Origin: an uncultured Opitutia bacterium
GTDB taxonomy: Bacteria; Verrucomicrobiota; Verrucomicrobiia; Opitutales; Puniceicoccaceae
Direction: 5' to 3'
Length of the DNA: 64,000 bases
NCBI GenBank assembly: GCA_913056175.1
Contig: CAJXLM010000005.1
Span: 1 to 64,000 of the forward strand
Part shown: positions 1-42,182 of the stretch, one piece after another
Layout of the letters: each line of letters opens with the position of its first letter
Position numbering within the stretch: the first letter of the stretch is position 1
Made by a program: the position numbers and the translations under genes
Notes under the pieces: generated by a model
The model's input: only the letters and a program-made list of their open reading frames with translations
Database searches by the model: none
What the model was told of the DNA's origin: nothing

Positions 1-104
1 ATCAAAAACTCCCGCTCCTCCGCCCCCAACCGAAACTCCCCCAACAACTCCCCCCGCAAATAGTAGTACCCCTCCCCTCTCAACTTGTAGCGCCGCCGTC
101 GCAT
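1..104 (-). CDS. Y1/REP-associated tyrosine transposase-like protein, N-terminal fragment
   Basis: A reading frame starts with ATG at 104 on the minus strand and runs off the left edge after 34 codons. It begins MRRRRYKLRGEGYYYL and ends EEREFL. A short basic start, a GEGYYY segment and an EERE segment about ten residues later match the usual N-terminus of Y1 (IS200-like / RAYT) transposases, which bind palindromic REP hairpins. The catalytic HUH motif and tyrosine would lie outside the window, so intactness cannot be judged. A purine-rich GGTGTGGGGGT stretch precedes the start. The palindromic repeats at 425-840 and the hairpins near 1030 and 1070 fit this family. Identification rests on 34 residues only. 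Confidence 0.5.
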   Translation of the reverse strand, partial: MRRRRYKLRGEGYYYLRGELLGEFRLGAEEREFL

Positions 105-424: not shown

Positions 425-840
425 TCCTTTCCGGAAAGCCTTTCCCGGAGGCATATTCCTTTCCGGACAATCGTTTCCGGGAGACCTTTCCTTTCCGGAA
501 AGACTTTCCCGGAGGCGCTTTGCCTCCTGGACGGTCGTTTCCGGGAAACCTTTCTTTTCCGGAAAGCCTTTTCCGGAGGCACTTTCCTTTCCGGACAGTC
601 GTTTCCGGGAGAAGTTTCCTTTCCGGAAAGGTTTTCCCGGGAGCTCTTTCCTTCTTGGAATGCTTTTCCCCGGAGCCCTTTGCTTTCCGGAGGGCTGTCT
701 GGAGGGATCCTTCCTTCCCCGACAGCGGTTTCCGGGAACGCTTCCTTTGCGGACGCATGTTTCTGGGGACGCTTCCTTGGCGGGCGGCCGTTTTTGGGAG
801 TGCATTCCTTTCCGGCCGGTCTTTTCCGGGGATACGGGAG
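425..840. repeat. 32-bp tandem repeat array, about 13 units, with internal CCGG palindromes
   Basis: Units start at about 425, 457, 489, 521, 553, 585, 617, 649, 681, 712 and onward, nearly always 32 bp apart. A unit reads roughly TCCTTTCCGGAAAG, a short linker, TTTCCCGGAGGC and four variable bases, so each has two CCGG-centred halves. Alternate units resemble each other most (AAAG..AGGC against ACAG..GAGA), giving a weak 64-bp super-period. The first seven units are well kept; later ones decay and one is a base short. CTTTCCGGAAAG is a perfect 12-bp palindrome. Since 32 is not a multiple of three, the open frames across it are not credible proteins. Confidence 0.85.
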
Positions 841-1362: not shown

Positions 1363-2787
1363 TCAGTATTTATAGTGCTCCGGCTTGTAGGGCCCTTCCA
1401 CCGGCACGCCGATGTAGTCGGCCTGTTCCGGGCGCAAGGCGGTGAGTCGGGCTCCGATCTTCTCGAGGTGCAGCCGGGCGACTTCCTCATCGATCCGCTT
1501 GGGCAGAATGTAGACCCCGGGCCGGTACTTCTCGAGGTTCTTCCACAGCTCGACCTGGGCGAGGACCTGGTTGCAGAAGGAGTTGCTCATCACGAACGAA
1601 GGGTGCCCGGTGGCACAGCCCAGATTGACGAGCCGGCCCTCGGCGAGCACGTAAATCGCGTGCCCGTCGGGGAAGGTCCACTGGTCGACCTGGGGCTTCA
1701 CCTCGACCCGGCGCAGGTCCGGGGCCGCCTCGAGGCGTTCGATCTGGATCTCGTTGTCGAAGTGGCCGATGTTGCAGACGATGGACTGGTCCTTCATCCG
1801 CTCCATGTGCTCGAGGGTGATGATGTCGCGGTTTCCGGTGGTGGTCACGTAGATGTCCCCGATGGGGAGGGCGTCCTCCACCGTCATCACCCGGAAGCCC
1901 TCCATGGCCGCCTGCAGGGCGCAGATCGGGTCGACCTCGGTGACCACCACCTGAGCCCCCATTCCGCGGAGGGCCTGGGCGCAGCCCTTGCCGACATCGC
2001 CATAGCCACAGACGACCCCCACCTTGCCCGAGATCATGACATCCGTGGCCCGCTTGATGCCGTCGATCAGGGACTCCCGGCACCCGTAGAGATTGTCGAA
2101 CTTCGACTTGGTGACGGAGTCATTCACATTGATCGCCGGGACGAGGAGGCGCTCCTCCTCGTGCATACGGTAGAGACGGTGCACGCCGGTGGTGGTCTCC
2201 TCGGAGACCCCCCTCCACTCCTCGACCACCTTGTGCCAGTGGAGCGGATCCTCGGAGCGAACCGCGCGGAGCTGGGCCTTGAAGGCCTCTTCCTCCCGGC
2301 TTTCCGGCGGCGCGTCCACCCAGTCGTCGCCGTCCTCCATTTCGTAGCCCTTATGGATCATGAGGGTCGCATCGCCGCCATCGTCGACGATGAGGTTGGG
2401 GCCCTTGCCATCCGGCCAGGTGAGGGCCTGGTACGTGCACCACCAGTACTCTTCGAGAGTCTCCCCCTTCCAGGCGAAGACGGGCACGCCGGAGGCGGCC
2501 ACGGCCGCGGCCGCCGGGTCCTGGGTGGAAAAGATGTTGCAGCTGGCCCAGCGCACATCGGCGCCGAGGGCCACGAGGGTGTCGATGAGCACGGCCGTCT
2601 GCACGGTCATGTGCAAGGATCCGCTGATGCGGACCCCGGCGAGGGGCTGTTCCCCGGCGTGCTTCTCCTTCACGGCCATGAGGCCGGGCATCTCTTTCTC
2701 GGCGATCCCGATCTCGATGCGGCCAGCGCCGGCCTGGGAAATGTCGGCGACCTTGTAGTCGGTGGTGGTGGGGGTCTCTACGGGCAT
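1363..2787 (-). CDS. ahcY: adenosylhomocysteinase
   Basis: This cytosolic NAD-dependent enzyme of 474 residues hydrolyses S-adenosylhomocysteine to adenosine and homocysteine, removing the product that inhibits methyltransferases. The family start is present ([14 protein letters not shown]), followed by the substrate-binding [13 protein letters not shown], the [11 protein letters not shown] segment, the Rossmann motif [11 protein letters not shown] and the C-terminal end [10 protein letters not shown]...[10 protein letters not shown]. Its length fits the long bacterial form with an extra insertion in the catalytic domain. It lies just downstream of metK on the same strand with a 62-base gap, so the two probably form a methyl-cycle operon. 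The ATG at 2787 fits the usual family N-terminus. Confidence 0.97.
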
Positions 2788-2849: not shown

Positions 2850-4022
2850 TCAGAGCGCGTTGGTGAGGGCATCCACCCGGTTGGGGCGTTCCCAGGGGAG
2901 GCCGGCCTTCCCGAAGTGGCCGTAGTGGGTGGTGCTGCGGAAGATGGGATCGCGCAGGTCGAGGGCCTCGATGATGCCCGCGGGAGTCAGGTCAAAGGAT
3001 GCGCGGACCGCCCGGGAGAGCTCGAGCTCCGGTACCCGGCCGGTTCCGAAGGTCTGCACGAGCACACTCGTCGGCTCCGGGTACCCGATCGCGTAAGCCA
3101 GCTGGACCTCCGCCTCGTCGGCGAGCCCGGCCGCCACCAGGTTGAGGGCAATCCAGCGGGCCATGTAGGCGGCGGAGCGGTCCACCTTGGTGGCATCCTT
3201 TCCGGAGAAGGCCCCCCCGCCGTGGCGGGACCAGCCGCCGTAGGTATCCACGATGATCTTGCGCCCGGTCAGGCCCGCGTCCGCGTAGGGCCCTCCGGCC
3301 ACGAAACGCCCGGTCGGGTTGGCGAGGAAGCGGGTCTCGGGGAGGAGGAGGTCCTCCGGAAGCACCGCGCGGAGCAGCTCCTCCTCGAGGTGGTGGCGCA
3401 GGTCGGCTTCGCCAATGGCCTCGGTATGCTGGGTGGAGACAACCACATTCTCGAGGCCGATCGGCCGACCGCCCTCGTAGTGCACCGCCACCTGCGCCTT
3501 GCAATCCGGCCGCAGCTCGCGCGTCCAGCCCTCCCCGGAGCGGCGCATCTCCGCGAGCCGGCGGAGGAGGCGGTGGGCGAGCATGACGGGCAAGGGCATG
3601 AATTCCTCGGTCGCCCGGGTGGCGTAGCCGAACATGATCCCCTGGTCGCCGGCTCCCTGCCGGGCCCCCTCCTTGCCCTCGGCCGCCCGCGCGTCCACCC
3701 CCTGCCCGATGTCCCGCGATTGGCGGGTGATCGCGTTGGTCAGGAAAACCTTGTCCGCGTGGAAGATGTCGTCCTCGTGATCGTAGCCGATCCCCCGCAG
3801 GGTATCCCGGACGAGGCAATGGTAGTCGAGGCAAGCCTCCGTGGTGATCTCCCCGGCGAGGAAAACCAGGTTGCTCTTCACGAGCGTCTCGCAAGCCACC
3901 CGGCTCCCCGGATCCCCGGCGAGGCAGGCATCGAGGATCGCGTCGGAGATCGCATCCGCCACCTTGTCGGGGTGGCCCTCGCCCACGGATTCGGAGGAAA
4001 AGGTAAAGCTGTCCTTGCCCAT
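2850..4022 (-). CDS. metK: S-adenosylmethionine synthetase
   Basis: The 390-residue product makes S-adenosylmethionine from methionine and ATP in the cytosol. It opens with the family signature [16 protein letters not shown] and contains the signatures [12 protein letters not shown] and GGGAFSGKD. Length is normal. It is the first gene of the metK-ahcY pair, joining synthesis of the methyl donor to clearance of its by-product. The spacer upstream (4023-4192) is short. On the minus strand a TATGAT-like -10 is visible near 4046-4051, but the -35 match is weak. I found no SAM-riboswitch-like fold there by eye. Confidence 0.97.
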
Positions 4023-12401: not shown

Positions 12402-14114
12402 ATGTCGGGACCGGGGTGCCGGATTGGATCATTGCGGTCGGGCCCACGATGGGATGGACTCCCGGGTGTGAAACCCGCAGCCCACTCCCGTTTCACTGGC
12501 AAAGGGAAAAATCTCTGCCGGGGGAGAGAGGTTCGAGCGGGGAAGGCTCGCCCACGGAACCCGTCCCTGCCGAGGACTCGGCTTGCCCTTCTCGCGGTCT
12601 CGCTCCTCCTGCCACCAGCCCTCACCGGAGCCACGGAGAAGCCCGCCGACGGATTGCCCTTTGTCCCCGAGGTCGCCCTTGAGGAAGTCCCCTGCCCCTT
12701 CCCCGCCCCGCTCGGGGAACGGCCCGTTTGCCTGCTCGCGGAGCTGCCCATGGATCATGGAGAGGTGCGCGCGGACGGGAGCCTGCCGGAAGACGCCCGC
12801 ACCGTGCAGGTCCACCTGACCCACCTTCCCCGTCTTTCCTCGAGCGAGGACCCCAACCCCATTCTCTTCCTGAGCGGAGGCCCTGGGCAGGCCGGCTCCG
12901 AGGCCATTGTTCAACTGGGCAACGCCGTGGAATTGCGACAGGACCGGGGCATTCTCCTCGTCGACCAGCGCGGCACTGGTCTCTCCCGCCCGGCCCTGAA
13001 CTGCCCGGAGGTGGCGGGGACGGAGCTCGACCGGAACCGCTTCAACGATCCCGACCTTGATCCTGACGAGGCGGTGGTGCGGCGCATGTCCGCCTGCCAT
13101 GACCACTGGGTGGCGGAGGAAGTGGATCTCTCGCGCTTCGGCACGCGGTCGGCAGCGCTCGATTTGCGGGCGATCCGCCGGGCCCTCGACCTGCGCCGCT
13201 GGAACCCCCTCGCCACCTCCTACGGGGCCCGCCTCGCCCTCGACCTGCTGCGCGTCGATCCCGGCGGGGTGCGGGCGGCCGTTCTCAACTCGCCCCTGGT
13301 GCTCGCACCGGCGACCACACCCGAATTGCTCGCCGAGCGACCCCGGATCTTTGAGAAGCTTTTCGCCGCATGCGCCGCCGATCCCGCCTGCGCGGAGGCG
13401 CACGGGGACCTCGAACGGAAATTCCGGGAGATTGCCGGGCACTTCCAGGAGGAGTCGGTGCGGCTGCAGTTCCGCGACCCGCAGACCGGCCGGCGGATCC
13501 GCCGGGAAGTGGCCTGGCCGGATGTGGTCGAGGCGCTCTACGAGCAACTCGCCTTCAGCCCGAGCGCCGTGGAGGTACCCCGCCGGATCGCCGAGCTGCA
13601 CGCGATGACCGAGGGACGCCTTTCTCTCGGCGACGAGGAGGTCGCGGCGATCCTCTCGAGCAGCGTCCAATCCATCAGCGCGGAGCTGGCCCTCGGGCAG
13701 CACTTCTCCGTGAAATGCCGGGAGGACTTGCCGGCAGACGATCCCGGCGCGCTCCAGGCGGTCGTCGACGAGCACCCCCTCTATTTCCCCATGGGGGATG
13801 GGATGGACCGGTACCGGAGGATTTGCACGCTGTGGTCGTCCGGCGAGGCCGACCCCAGCTTCCTCCGCCCCACCACCACCGACCGCCCCGTCCTCGTTCT
13901 CAGCGGGGACGCCGACACCCTCGTACCCCATGCGGTCGCCCGGCGGCTCGCCGAACGGCTCCCGCACGGCCAGTTCGTGGCCTTTCCCGGATTCGGTCAC
14001 GATCCTCACGGGATCCTCCTCTGCGCCCGCAGCATTACCGCCCACTTCCTGGACCGTCCCGACCAACCGGTGGATACGACCTGCACGGAAGACCTGCCTC
14101 CCCTTCTGCGGTGA
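12402..14114 (+). CDS. exported alpha/beta hydrolase, S33 peptidase-like
   Basis: A secreted or periplasmic alpha/beta hydrolase of about 500 mature residues. A basic stretch followed by LALLAVSLLLPPALTGA is a good signal peptide. The core has the oxyanion segment LFLSGGPGQAGSEA, DQRGTGLS, the nucleophile region TSYGARLALDLL (Ser in TSYGA), the acid region VLVLSGDADTLVP and the histidine region FPGFGHDPHG. This arrangement matches tripeptidyl/prolyl aminopeptidases and related esterases of family S33. The start is unclear: ATG 12402 and GTG 12468 are both in frame, and both leave a long N-terminal extension before the signal peptide. The upstream spacer (12122-12401) holds nothing I can support. 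Confidence 0.8.
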   Translation: MSGPGCRIGSLRSGPRWDGLPGVKPAAHSRFTGKGKNLCRGREVRAGKARPRNPSLPRTRLALLAVSLLLPPALTGATEKPADGLPFVPEVALEEVPCPFPAPLGERPVCLLAELPMDHGEVRADGSLPEDARTVQVHLTHLPRLSSSEDPNPILFLSGGPGQAGSEAIVQLGNAVELRQDRGILLVDQRGTGLSRPALNCPEVAGTELDRNRFNDPDLDPDEAVVRRMSACHDHWVAEEVDLSRFGTRSAALDLRAIRRALDLRRWNPLATSYGARLALDLLRVDPGGVRAAVLNSPLVLAPATTPELLAERPRIFEKLFAACAADPACAEAHGDLERKFREIAGHFQEESVRLQFRDPQTGRRIRREVAWPDVVEALYEQLAFSPSAVEVPRRIAELHAMTEGRLSLGDEEVAAILSSSVQSISAELALGQHFSVKCREDLPADDPGALQAVVDEHPLYFPMGDGMDRYRRICTLWSSGEADPSFLRPTTTDRPVLVLSGDADTLVPHAVARRLAERLPHGQFVAFPGFGHDPHGILLCARSITAHFLDRPDQPVDTTCTEDLPPLLR

Positions 14115-14234
14115 AGGGGCGCTCCCGGAAGTGCCGCGAGCGGGTTGGTGCGACTTGGCCGGCCGCGTTCGCCCACCGAGCCCGTACCCGCCCGGTGGCC
14201 CCGGGAAGGACTCCCGGACCCAGCGCCCTTCCCG

Positions 14235-14283
14235 CCGGCGAGGTCGGCTCCGAAGGAACCCCGCTCCCAGCCGACCTCGCCGG
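14235..14283. terminator. perfect 15-bp hairpin between convergent genes
   Basis: CCGGCGAGGTCGGCT (14235-14249) and its exact reverse complement (14269-14283) are separated by 19 bases, about 120 bases past the S33-like gene and 150 bases past the opposing esterase gene. No T tract is present. A two-way terminator or REP-like element is most likely. The rest of 14115-14432 shows no gene. Confidence 0.55.
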
Positions 14284-14432
14284 GGGGAGCTGCCGAGCCG
14301 GGCAAGGAAACCGATCGCGGACGAGGAAAGGGGGGCTGCGGCAATCCCTCACCGCCCATCTCCGGAAGCGACAGGCGGCCTTGCCTCCCGGTATGGACTC
14401 CCGGCGCCCGGCGCCCGGCGAGCGGCCCGCCT

Positions 14433-15215
14433 TCAGGATTTCGCCGACCGCCCGAACCAGTCGATGATCCCGTCGGCGATCCCCTCGCGCTCGGGACCGT
14501 TCACCATGACGTGAGGACTGTTTCGCAGGTGGACCTTTTCCCTTTCCGGGGAAGCGATGCCGTTGAGGATGAGGTCGGCGGCCTCCGGGGGAACGCTCTC
14601 GTCGGCGTCGGAGACATAGACCAGCGTGGCCGAGCGCACCCCGGGCAGTTCCCGGCGGGCCCGCACCTGCAGCTTGCGCAGGGAATCGGCCTGGGCCGGC
14701 CAGTCGTAGGACCCGTATTCGCGGGCGATCGTGCGCAGGTCGGGATCCTCGGGGAGTTCCCCTTCCCCTCGGTTCATCCGCCGGAAGAGGAGCCGAAGGA
14801 GCGGGGCCAACACGATCGCCCGCCGGCGGTTGACCACCGCCGGAGCCATCAGGGCGATCCGGGGAATGTCGAAATGGGCGGCCAGCAGGAGCGCGATCAC
14901 CCCTCCCATGGACAGTCCGGCCACATGGACGGTCCGGTACTCCGCCCGGAGATCGAGATAGGCGTCCGTGAAACGCCGCAACCAATCCCGCCAACCCGTC
15001 TGCAGGAAATCGTCGCCGCGGGTCCCGTGCCCGGGCAGGCGGGGCACCGAGACCGTGAATCCGGCCCCGTGCAAGCGATCCGCGAGGTAGGTGAATTCTC
15101 CCGGATACCCGGTGAACCCGTGCAGGACGAGCACGGCCTCGTCCCCGCCCGGGAGGAAGCGCGGCCGGGCTGCGCCGACTACCCGGGTATCCGCGGGAAT
15201 CGATTTCAGTTCCAT
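14433..15215 (-). CDS. alpha/beta hydrolase, carboxylesterase/monoacylglycerol lipase type
   Basis: A 260-residue cytosolic alpha/beta hydrolase without signal peptide. It shows VLVLHGFTGYPGEF (oxyanion HG), PRLPGHGTRGDDFL, the nucleophile elbow GLSMGGVIAL (Ser in GLSMG), the acid in YVSDADESVP and the histidine in NSPHVMVNG. This pattern is that of Est30-like carboxylesterases acting on short acyl esters or monoglycerides. The ATG at 15215 is chosen because the family alignment starts soon after. It lies 110 bases downstream of the oxidoreductase gene on the same strand and may share its transcript. Confidence 0.88.
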   Translation of the reverse strand: MELKSIPADTRVVGAARPRFLPGGDEAVLVLHGFTGYPGEFTYLADRLHGAGFTVSVPRLPGHGTRGDDFLQTGWRDWLRRFTDAYLDLRAEYRTVHVAGLSMGGVIALLLAAHFDIPRIALMAPAVVNRRRAIVLAPLLRLLFRRMNRGEGELPEDPDLRTIAREYGSYDWPAQADSLRKLQVRARRELPGVRSATLVYVSDADESVPPEAADLILNGIASPEREKVHLRNSPHVMVNGPEREGIADGIIDWFGRSAKS

Positions 15216-39509: not shown

Positions 39510-41027
39510 CTAGGCAACCTCTCGCTCGAAAAAGTGCTGGAGAACGTTCTCCTGGGTGATTTCCTCGCCCACCAGGTGGGCCTTGATTTCCCCGCGGTAG
39601 AGGACATACGCCCTCCGGGAAAGGTGGAGAACCTCGGGAAGGTCCGAGGAAATCACGACCACCGCGGCGCCCTCCTCGCAGAGCTCGGCGAGAAAGCGGT
39701 AAATCTCCGTGCGGGTGCCCACGTCCACGCCCACGGTGGGCTCGTCGAAGACGAACAGGCGGAAGTCGCGGGTCAGGCTCTTCGCCAGCAGCACCTTCTG
39801 CTGGTTCCCCCCGGAAAACTGGGAGACCGGGCGTTCGATCCGCGGGGGCTGGAGCTGCAAGCGGGCGGCCAGCTCCGCCGCGGTGTCCCGCTCCTTGCCC
39901 GTGCGGAGGAACCCACCCCGTCGGTAGGCGGCGGTCCCGATCGCCGGGAGGAGGATATTCTCCCGCACGCTCCGGTTCATGAGGAGCCCCTCCGCGCGGC
40001 GGTCCGGCGGACCGTAGAAAAAGCCCCGCCGGATCATCCGCCGGGGCGACTGCCCGTTGACCTCCTCGCCGAGAAAGACCACCCGGCCGGAGGCGATCCC
40101 ATCGAGGCCGTAGCAGGCCCGCAGCAACTCCGACTTCCCGGAGCCGACGAGCCCGGCCAGCCCGACAATTTCCCCGGCGTGGACCTCCAGCGAGGCGTCC
40201 CGCACATGGCCACTCCGCGTGGTCAGGCCCTCCACGCGGAGGACCTCCGCGCCGGGCGAGAACTCGATGGACGGGAAGATCTGGTCAATGACGCGTCCGG
40301 TCATCAGGCGGACGAGCTCCTCCTCCGAGGTGGAACCCGCGTCCACGGTCTCGATTTTCCGGCCGTCCCGCAGCACGGTCACCCGGTCCCCGATCTCGCG
40401 GATCTCCGCCATCCGGTGGGTGATGTAGAGGATCCCCGCGCCCTTCGCCTGCAGCTTCCGCACGAGGGCGAAAAGGCTCTCCGTCTCCCGCTCGGTGAGG
40501 GAGGCGGTCGGCTCGTCGAGGATGAGTACGGAGACCCGGGAACGGAAACCCTTGGCGATCTCCACCATCTGCTTCTCCGCCCGGGTCAGGGTCTTCACCT
40601 TGCGCTCCGGCCGGAGGGGGAACTCGAGGCTCTCCAGCAATTCCCGGGCCCGCCGCCGGGCGGCCTTCCGGTCGAGGAAGGGTCCCCGCTTCAGCTCGTT
40701 CCCGAGGAAGAGATTCTCCTCGATGGTGAGCTCCTCCACGAGGGAGAATTCCTGGAAGACCGCACTGATCCCGTGCTCCCGGGCGTCGTGCACGCTGTGC
40801 AGGCGTACCTCCTCCCCCCGGAGCTCGATGCTCCCCTCGTCCGGAGCGTGCACGCCGGCGAGCGTGGCGATGAGGGTCGACTTGCCCGCGCCGTTCTCCC
40901 CGAAAAGCACGTGCACTTCACCGGCCCGGAGGTCGAGATCCACCCGGTCGAGCGCCCGGACGCCGGGGAAGGTACGGGTGAGGCCCCGAACCCGGAGGAT
41001 CGGGGCCTCTTCACCATTCCACACCAT
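39510..41027 (-). CDS. sugar-type ABC transporter ATP-binding protein (two ABC domains)
   Basis: A 505-residue protein with two nucleotide-binding domains. The first has Walker A FGENGAGKSTLIATLAG, signature LTRAEKQMVEIAKG and Walker B LILDEPTASLT. The second has a degenerate Walker A LAGLVGSGKSELLRACYG and signature QFSGGNQQKVLLAKSL with FVFDEPTVGVDVG. This is the RbsA/MglA arrangement. The gene follows the binding-protein gene by 69 bases and precedes the permease gene by four. The substrate is set by the TorT-like binding protein rather than by this subunit. Confidence 0.94.
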   Translation of the reverse strand: MVWNGEEAPILRVRGLTRTFPGVRALDRVDLDLRAGEVHVLFGENGAGKSTLIATLAGVHAPDEGSIELRGEEVRLHSVHDAREHGISAVFQEFSLVEELTIEENLFLGNELKRGPFLDRKAARRRARELLESLEFPLRPERKVKTLTRAEKQMVEIAKGFRSRVSVLILDEPTASLTERETESLFALVRKLQAKGAGILYITHRMAEIREIGDRVTVLRDGRKIETVDAGSTSEEELVRLMTGRVIDQIFPSIEFSPGAEVLRVEGLTTRSGHVRDASLEVHAGEIVGLAGLVGSGKSELLRACYGLDGIASGRVVFLGEEVNGQSPRRMIRRGFFYGPPDRRAEGLLMNRSVRENILLPAIGTAAYRRGGFLRTGKERDTAAELAARLQLQPPRIERPVSQFSGGNQQKVLLAKSLTRDFRLFVFDEPTVGVDVGTRTEIYRFLAELCEEGAAVVVISSDLPEVLHLSRRAYVLYRGEIKAHLVGEEITQENVLQHFFEREVA

Positions 41028-41096
41028 GCGGGTAGGCCGTTTGGCTCGCCTGCACTCGTCCGGAAGCGATGGGCTTTGCCCGCGGACCGTGCTTCC

Positions 41097-42182
41097 TCAG
41101 TCCGTGGAGAACTGGGGACGGAAGCCGTCCGGGGCGAGCGCCGCGTCCCGGTCAAAATTGCCAACGTTCTCGCTGTCCACGATGTAGAGCTGCGGGCCGA
41201 CATGCGGGAGAAACTCCTTCTCCTCGAGAATCCGCACGGCCTGGTCCACCGCGATGCGGCCCTGCAGGACGGTCGAGTCGGTCGGTGCCCCGAGGATCTG
41301 CCCGCGGCGAATCCCGCGGTACACTCCGGGCGTGAAGTAGTAGGACATGATGTCGATCTGCTCGTCCAGCCCCCGGGAACGGAGATAGCCGGTGGCGGCC
41401 TCCGCGGTCACGGCCGTTCCCACGATGTAGTCCACTTCCGGATTCGCCTCCACAGCATCCTCGACGAGACTCAGCTGGGCCTCCTTCCCGGTGTCCCCGT
41501 AGCGGGTGTCCACGATTTCGATCGCGCTGCCCTCGATGCCGTTCTGGAAACCGACATTGCCCGCTTCCACCCAGCCGGCGCCGGAGGGTCCGGGAAACCA
41601 GGCCACGCGGACGGTTTCCGATCCGGCCGGATGCTTCTCCGCGAGGTACTGTCCCGCCCGGAAGCCCATCTCCCCGAAGGAGACGAGGGACTTCGCGCTC
41701 AGCTCGGGGGAACTGATCCCGTTGATCACATCAATCACCGGAATGCCTTCCGCCCGGACTTCGCTGACGACATTGTTCAAGCCGTCGGCGGAAATCGCCC
41801 CGATGATGACCGCGTCGGCCCCGCCGGCTACGCAGTCCTCGATCTGTGAAATCTGGGTGTTCAGCTCAGTGTAGCCGCCCGCTTCCACGATCCGGGCGTT
41901 CACCCCGAGACGCTCCGCCTCGGCAATGACCCCGTAGTTCACCGCCAGCCAGTAGGCGTCCTTCATGTGCGGGAAGGAGACGCAGAGATCCCAGGCCTGT
42001 TCCGCCGACTCCAGCGGGGCGTAGTCCACCTGCGTGCGCGGACTGTTCATGTCGAAGGCCGGCTCCCAGACATCCACGGTGACGGGATACCACGAGGCGG
42101 TCGCGGCCGAGGCGCTGAGCGCGAGCGCACCGGCAAGGAGACCGGCCCGCGCGAGGGGGGTGGGGGGTAGTTGGGTTCGCAT
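41097..42182 (-). CDS. TorT-like periplasmic binding protein of the leftward ABC operon
   Basis: A 361-residue exported protein with a signal peptide (ARAGLLAGALALSASAATA). The mature part starts SWYPVTVDVWEPAFDMNS and has VSFPHMKDAYWLAVNYGVIA, GGYTELNTQISQIEDCVAGG and ADAVIIGAISADGLNN, a type I periplasmic-binding fold close to TorT, the ligand sensor of the TMAO system. No torS, torR or torA gene is nearby and an RbsA/RbsC-type transporter follows, so it is probably the transport receptor. The start at 42182 gives MRTQLPP, like the unrelated binding protein at 24941. Confidence 0.85.
   Translation of the reverse strand: MRTQLPPTPLARAGLLAGALALSASAATASWYPVTVDVWEPAFDMNSPRTQVDYAPLESAEQAWDLCVSFPHMKDAYWLAVNYGVIAEAERLGVNARIVEAGGYTELNTQISQIEDCVAGGADAVIIGAISADGLNNVVSEVRAEGIPVIDVINGISSPELSAKSLVSFGEMGFRAGQYLAEKHPAGSETVRVAWFPGPSGAGWVEAGNVGFQNGIEGSAIEIVDTRYGDTGKEAQLSLVEDAVEANPEVDYIVGTAVTAEAATGYLRSRGLDEQIDIMSYYFTPGVYRGIRRGQILGAPTDSTVLQGRIAVDQAVRILEEKEFLPHVGPQLYIVDSENVGNFDRDAALAPDGFRPQFSTD

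Follow-up and report, generated by a model that had tools for sequence, protein, structure and literature searches.

Locus organization

The window, that is the whole stretch of 64,000 nucleotides that was analysed, opens contig C5 in a draft genome of 2.6 Mb in 84 contigs. The gene order is ahcY, tandem array, G-rich leader, conserved hairpin block and RAYT-like gene. RAYTs are REP-associated tyrosine transposases; the type compared here, also called TnpA-REP, is a class 2 Y1 HUH endonuclease. The features are as follows:

1–104, minus strand: N-terminus of a RAYT-like gene (34 codons, start ATG at 104–102), cut by the contig start and recognized by similarity to same-family RAYTs
105–178, no strand assigned: conserved 5′ block of the family, with GCCTGTCATTA (151–161) and the imperfectly kept hairpin TCCAGCAAGCTGGA (165–178)
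179–421, no strand assigned: G-rich leader with a G-quadruplex-type motif (G 0.48 and C 0.10 on the plus strand over ~190–390)
422–830, no strand assigned: degenerate tandem array of a 32-bp unit (64/128-bp higher order) with alternating A and B types and left-to-right decay
1363–2787, minus strand: ahcY, S-adenosylhomocysteine hydrolase (Pfam PF05221, E = 1e-146), on the opposite side of the array
2850–4022, minus strand: metK

The two genes to the right of the array, ahcY and metK, are ordinary. The distance from the array to the start codon of the RAYT-like gene is 318 bp, with the array on the upstream side. The gene runs off the contig: read on the reverse strand, positions 104 to 1 give MRRRRYKLRGEGYYYLRGELLGEFRLGAEEREFL, and there the contig ends. 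Searches of the 35-aa contig-end peptide against Pfam and NCBIfam gave no match and its identity is known only through its relatives, the N-termini of same-family RAYTs (MRRRRIKIDGKKAYYHLMSRTVNGEPLFG), which it resembles at 41–47% over 34–36 aa. Next to the array, where ahcY, metK and the RAYT-like gene lie, no partition, replication or cas genes were found, and the scan of relatives' contigs with one neighbouring gene returned an unrelated locus only.

Structure of the 32-bp array

A preliminary description of this DNA had reported about 13 units of a 32-bp tandem array with alternating A and B types, the fidelity of which falls from left to right, and the period, the alternation and the gradient are all borne out. 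Tandem Repeats Finder (TRF) gives a period of 32 at 423–691, of 64 at 422–753 (score 324) and of 128 (score 380). The autocorrelation peaks at 0.596 (lags 10 to 149) versus a maximum of 0.395 among 1000 dinucleotide shuffles, with a match fraction of 0.586 at lag 32 and 0.594 at lag 64. Units 1, 3 and 5 have a mutual identity of 0.88–0.94 and reach at most 0.66 to the B units (positions 2 and 4). Identity at lag 64 runs from left to right through 0.81, 0.80, 0.84, 0.77, 0.69, 0.58, 0.50, 0.39 and 0.27. The figure of 13 units is generous: about 12–13 degenerate repeats are present between 422 and ~830, full units beginning at 422, while past ~750 only scattered remnants occur, with weaker traces to ~830.

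The first three 64-bp blocks are 0.83–0.91 identical to one another, and the identity of block 1 is 0.91 to block 3, 0.48 to block five and 0.30 to block six. The closest pair is thus formed by blocks 1 and 3, which corresponds to a 128-bp step. Nested 32-64-128 duplications leave such a pattern, with their youngest products at the left.

The array contains 19 copies of CCGG (5.9 expected) and eight of TCCGGA (0.5 expected), and the complete palindrome pointed out earlier, CTTTCCGGAAAG, is indeed present in three copies and absent from the shuffles. That most units contain TCCGGA, as had been stated, is a fair description of the left half of the array and does not hold for the right half. Folding of the array is stronger than that of shuffles (z −5.3), and the plus strand of positions 1–1400 has ten terminator-like hairpins, eight of them inside the array, versus 3.9 expected. 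A genome search for the 32-bp unit, a check that the preliminary description had suggested, found the array confined to this one locus and absent from the rest of the genome; the 11-mer TTTCCGGAAAG has three sites elsewhere in the genome and no more. Rfam, PADLOC, plasmid and viral searches gave no match.

A multicopy family derived from RAYTs

Positions 1–190 of the window recur about 26 times genome-wide at 79–91% identity, nearly all at contig ends, and the order of leader, block and gene recurs in the ~26 copies. C-terminal halves with 3′ flanks lie at ~19 further contig ends, and the RAYT-like gene family is the cause of the assembly breaks. Complete members are found on C19 (24272–25165; L228/L080), C24 (3883–4770), C39, C40, C9, C1 and C55. 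Pairwise searches give clear homology of the family to RAYTs at 36–43% identity, while the profile scores stay below the cut-offs, with 16.3 bits for PF01797 (cut-off 23) and 22.2 bits, E = 1e-4, for NF047646 (cut-off 80). The PF01797 search of this genome returned no match because the motifs are lost, and solved structures gave no sequence match.

The HUH motif is lost in all complete members and in every examined multicopy half-gene that reaches the region: where relatives read NHFHLLV, the family reads TGIQLVV, REVQLLV, REVCLLV, RELLCLA or REIQLLV. Likewise the Y---N motif (the catalytic Tyr with an Asn four residues on), AAYIDLN in relatives, has become RAAVQVA and similar. HUH, the catalytic Tyr and the metal-ligand Asn are all lost wherever the family is readable. 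The catalytic region of the window's own copy lies beyond the contig end, and its motif state is presumably that of its siblings. In a first search of 100 genomes, the relatives from other genomes that cover the motifs keep HUH and Y---N, and in a class-wide search HUH was readable in 27 of 28 loci from other genomes, the remaining one being broken by a stop. One further locus (L280) has HUH and a Tyr region that the search pattern did not capture; with that qualification, all retrieved other-genome relatives with a readable core appear to keep HUH-Y. Among the paralogues in this genome, those on C7 and C8 keep both HUH and Tyr and that on C6 keeps HUH with Tyr absent. The motif-less proteins form one clade (support 0.99).

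All 26 N-termini are open, with a mean pS of 0.21, pN of 0.04 and pN/pS of 0.18, and full-length pairs have dN/dS of 0.27–0.77, which indicates that the motif-less family is still under purifying selection. As HUH and Y---N are lost but the frames are constrained, we regard these genes as a RAYT-derived family and not as working RAYTs; the family is apparently catalytically dead.

The conserved block and the G-rich leader

Each family copy has a conserved block of ~75 bp followed by a G-rich leader of ~200 bp. Column conservation of the aligned 5′ flanks is mostly 0.82–0.97 to ~175 (with dips to 0.71 at 141–150) and then ~0.5. Up to ~175 the flanks hold GCCTGTCATTATATTCC and a loosely kept hairpin; beyond, the similarity is at the level of composition. 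All 29 flanks are G-rich over ~200 bp of the plus strand (G 0.41–0.56, C 0.09–0.24), and in the window and all 28 other copies this richness is on the strand opposite to the RAYT-like gene. A G4-type motif occurs in 20 of 28 leaders versus 21% of noncoding 250-bp windows. The leader is common to C5 and C57 up to position 252 of C5, and C57 is without an array. Since the leader is in common and the array is in C5 only, the array arose locally, and the comparison suggests that it postdates, or is independent of, the event that duplicated the gene together with its leader.

Arrays beside other family copies

About one third of the family copies carry a short-period tandem array beyond the leader, a few hundred bp past the gene start, in most cases built of a unit that no other copy has. 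The periods are 32 bp in C5, 21 bp in C26, 27 bp in C73, 22/66 bp in C47, 41 bp in C4 and 29 bp in C2-right, and these arrays start ~305–510 from the common origin; longer units of 192–274 bp, starting at ~360–630, are found in C33, C36, C2-left and C56. BLAST between the 5′ arrays found no clear similarity except between C73 and C2-left, which have an array in common by descent, so not every array is independent. Several sister units are without a palindrome. In C5, C26 and C73 the units closest to the leader resemble one another most, whereas the best matches in C47 and C4 are between distal or central units; a general polarity of the arrays away from the gene is unsupported beyond three of about six arrays.

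The association was assessed on stretches totalling 1.15 Mb of the genome. Short arrays cover 7.0% of the noncoding bases up to 900 bp 5′ of family genes versus 0.64% elsewhere, and are present in 8 of 24 intergenic gaps of at least 300 bp 5′ of family genes versus 8 of 202 others (Fisher p = 3.7e-5). The gene caller was simple and crude and several of the eight other arrays are probably coding, so that the enrichment is understated. In G003, a genome of the same family, a tandem array within ~2.4 kb was found for 0 of 27 members of a related RAYT subfamily. Array formation beside RAYTs in general is therefore rejected, and the association belongs to this lineage; as the G003 RAYTs are live and without arrays, proximity to a RAYT alone is insufficient.

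Other repeats in this genome and its relatives

The 3′ flanks of family genes (L098 at C29:495–2000, L099, L100 and others) have in common a palindrome-rich, BIME-like element of ~280 bp in repeated copies, which was found at ~70 sites, almost all of them close to a contig end. A repeat family with the core GCAGACACCCAT lies in tandem pairs at C7:31287–67072, C8:44977–45567 and C4:88859–89016, and may be the REP family that belongs to an intact RAYT-like paralogue (C7:33.6 kb, C8:37.8 kb). On C10, a 224-bp × 2.7 array containing CTCTGTGTCCTCTGTGCCCTCTGTGGTG (13889–14482, L144) is located near the genes for ribosomal protein S2 and EF-Ts, and a 387-bp × 3.2 array with GGCGGTCTGTCCCCCATAATTTCCCCAGTTGGGGGAC (40371–41609, L146) resembles the CTGTC block upstream of RAYT-like genes but has none of these genes within 29 kb of it. 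In a same-family genome (L014, G001:C39), a Y1-transposase gene is placed between 110-bp tandem arrays of similar units (542–1110 and 1826–2476). In G018, another genome of the order, the hairpin CCGGGAAACCTTTCTTTTCCGGAAAAGAAAGG(T)TTTCCCGG is dispersed (L002–L006), often at gene ends, and is likely a dispersed terminator or REP-like element. Homology of the 32-bp array to these G018 repeats was considered and rejected, as they are dispersed single hairpins (CCGGGAAACCTTTCTTTTCCGGAAAAGAAAGG...) in another genome.

Origin of the array

The 32-bp array has head-to-tail degenerate units from local duplication, as a minisatellite does. We favour, with moderate confidence, the explanation that it is a bacterial minisatellite which expanded past the leader through local tandem duplication, 5′ of a single member of the multicopy, motif-less RAYT-derived family, and whose youngest units are proximal. 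DNA abutting the G-rich leader would have been duplicated in tandem locally, again and again, probably by polymerase slippage or by re-replication at a stalled fork, and the G-rich, hairpin-bearing leader could plausibly stall a replication fork. In C5, new duplications would have been mostly leader-proximal, leaving the distal units as the oldest and most decayed. The CCGG palindromes would then be part of the founding sequence of the C5 copy and not a conserved binding site. They are the source of the strong folding and the terminator-like hairpins of this array and may aid slippage, but sister arrays without palindromes exist, so they are not required for array formation. Local duplication is the most economical account of the locus-private units, the post-leader position, the nested 32/64/128 periods and the gradient in C5, C26 and C73, but alone it leaves unexplained C47 and C4, in which the freshest units are distal or central. 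Among the origins proposed in the preliminary description, repeated duplication near a transposase has gained support, as a RAYT-like gene adjoins the array and sister copies have arrays of their own, unrelated to this one, at the equivalent position.

The palindromic units and the adjoining RAYT-like gene would also suit a REP/BIME-type array, for which, as in REPtrons, a RAYT cleaved and rejoined single-stranded hairpins, and which is now a fossil with the transposase dead. The common ~280-bp palindrome-rich array in the 3′ flanks of family genes points the same way, as do the ordered REPIN clusters on record next to RAYTs in P. fluorescens (PMC3116915). However, a REP/BIME unit is a palindrome dispersed in intergenic space and cognate to a RAYT, while copies of the 32-bp unit are not scattered through the genome, the units of the sister 5′ arrays are unrelated and in many cases not palindromic, and the family has lost its catalytic residues, which together make this origin unlikely.

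The density of palindromes (19 CCGG), the eight terminator-like hairpins in the array and the folding z of −5.3 would fit a binding or cis-regulatory array too, with the hairpins bound by the RAYT-derived protein, the family of which is conserved, or serving as repeated terminators or mRNA structures. Such a role seems improbable when near-identical proteins stand beside arrays of unrelated sequence, most family copies are without any array and the distal half of this one is heavily decayed. The protein-binding array proposed earlier appears likewise unsupported for a single locus with unrelated sister units, several of them without a palindrome, and the same observations leave the proposed replication or segregation site unsupported. 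The outcome that had been set against those proposals is largely the one observed, the array being variable and locus-specific, with no conserved unit. A replication, segregation or CRISPR-like array, favoured by the regular period and the palindromes and by nothing more, is highly improbable, as the array is one among many unlike arrays in this genome, its flank is without partition, replication or cas genes, there is no Rfam match, and the spacers, whose absence had been noted correctly, are missing along with the rest of the CRISPR pattern of identical repeats with unique spacers and cas genes.

Known systems and what is new

RAYTs are regarded as single-copy domesticated transposases for which HUH-Y chemistry is required to keep REP sequences alive. 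RAYT-REP units have been named REPtrons, and the same work reports that the RAYTs in its alignment keep HUH and Tyr (PMC3733652). Class 2 genes are reported to occur in few copies that resemble one another little, and sequences without core motifs were set aside as probably non-functional (PMC6006769). The locus resembles REPtrons (PMC3116915, PMC3733652, PMC6006769) in having a RAYT homologue flanked by palindrome-rich arrays, but here HUH, Tyr and Asn are lost, there are ~26 close gene copies, and the 5′ units vary by copy and are undispersed, whereas REPtron units are a dispersed REP family. With bacterial minisatellites (VNTR loci, replication slippage) it shares intergenic head-to-tail units of 20–60 bp, higher-order duplication and decay of old units; the difference is that unrelated units recur at equivalent positions beside one gene family. 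The likeness to CRISPR arrays, with the freshest repeats near a leader, is one of superficial regularity, as here there are no spacers or cas genes and the units are internally variable.

The array alone is an ordinary minisatellite. New, in the open-access literature searched, are the roughly two dozen constrained, motif-less RAYT derivatives with private arrays, which are known from one draft genome. The many conserved yet apparently dead gene copies are a more surprising part of the finding than the array, and the multicopy motif-less family probably matters more than the array itself. It is conceivable, though doubtful, that the dead RAYT-derived proteins have been domesticated as a multicopy family that binds nucleic acids and is under purifying selection, in which every copy acts together with the arrays at its own flanks, and that arrays grow in a polarised way at the leader, much as CRISPR arrays expand leader-proximally but without spacers.

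The ~26 near-identical, constrained copies without HUH-Y imply either a catalysis-free binding role or spread in trans or by gene conversion. At the flanking arrays, tandem repeats have been born repeatedly beside a defined G-rich leader, and the flanks of this family thus offer natural replicate loci for the study of minisatellite birth.
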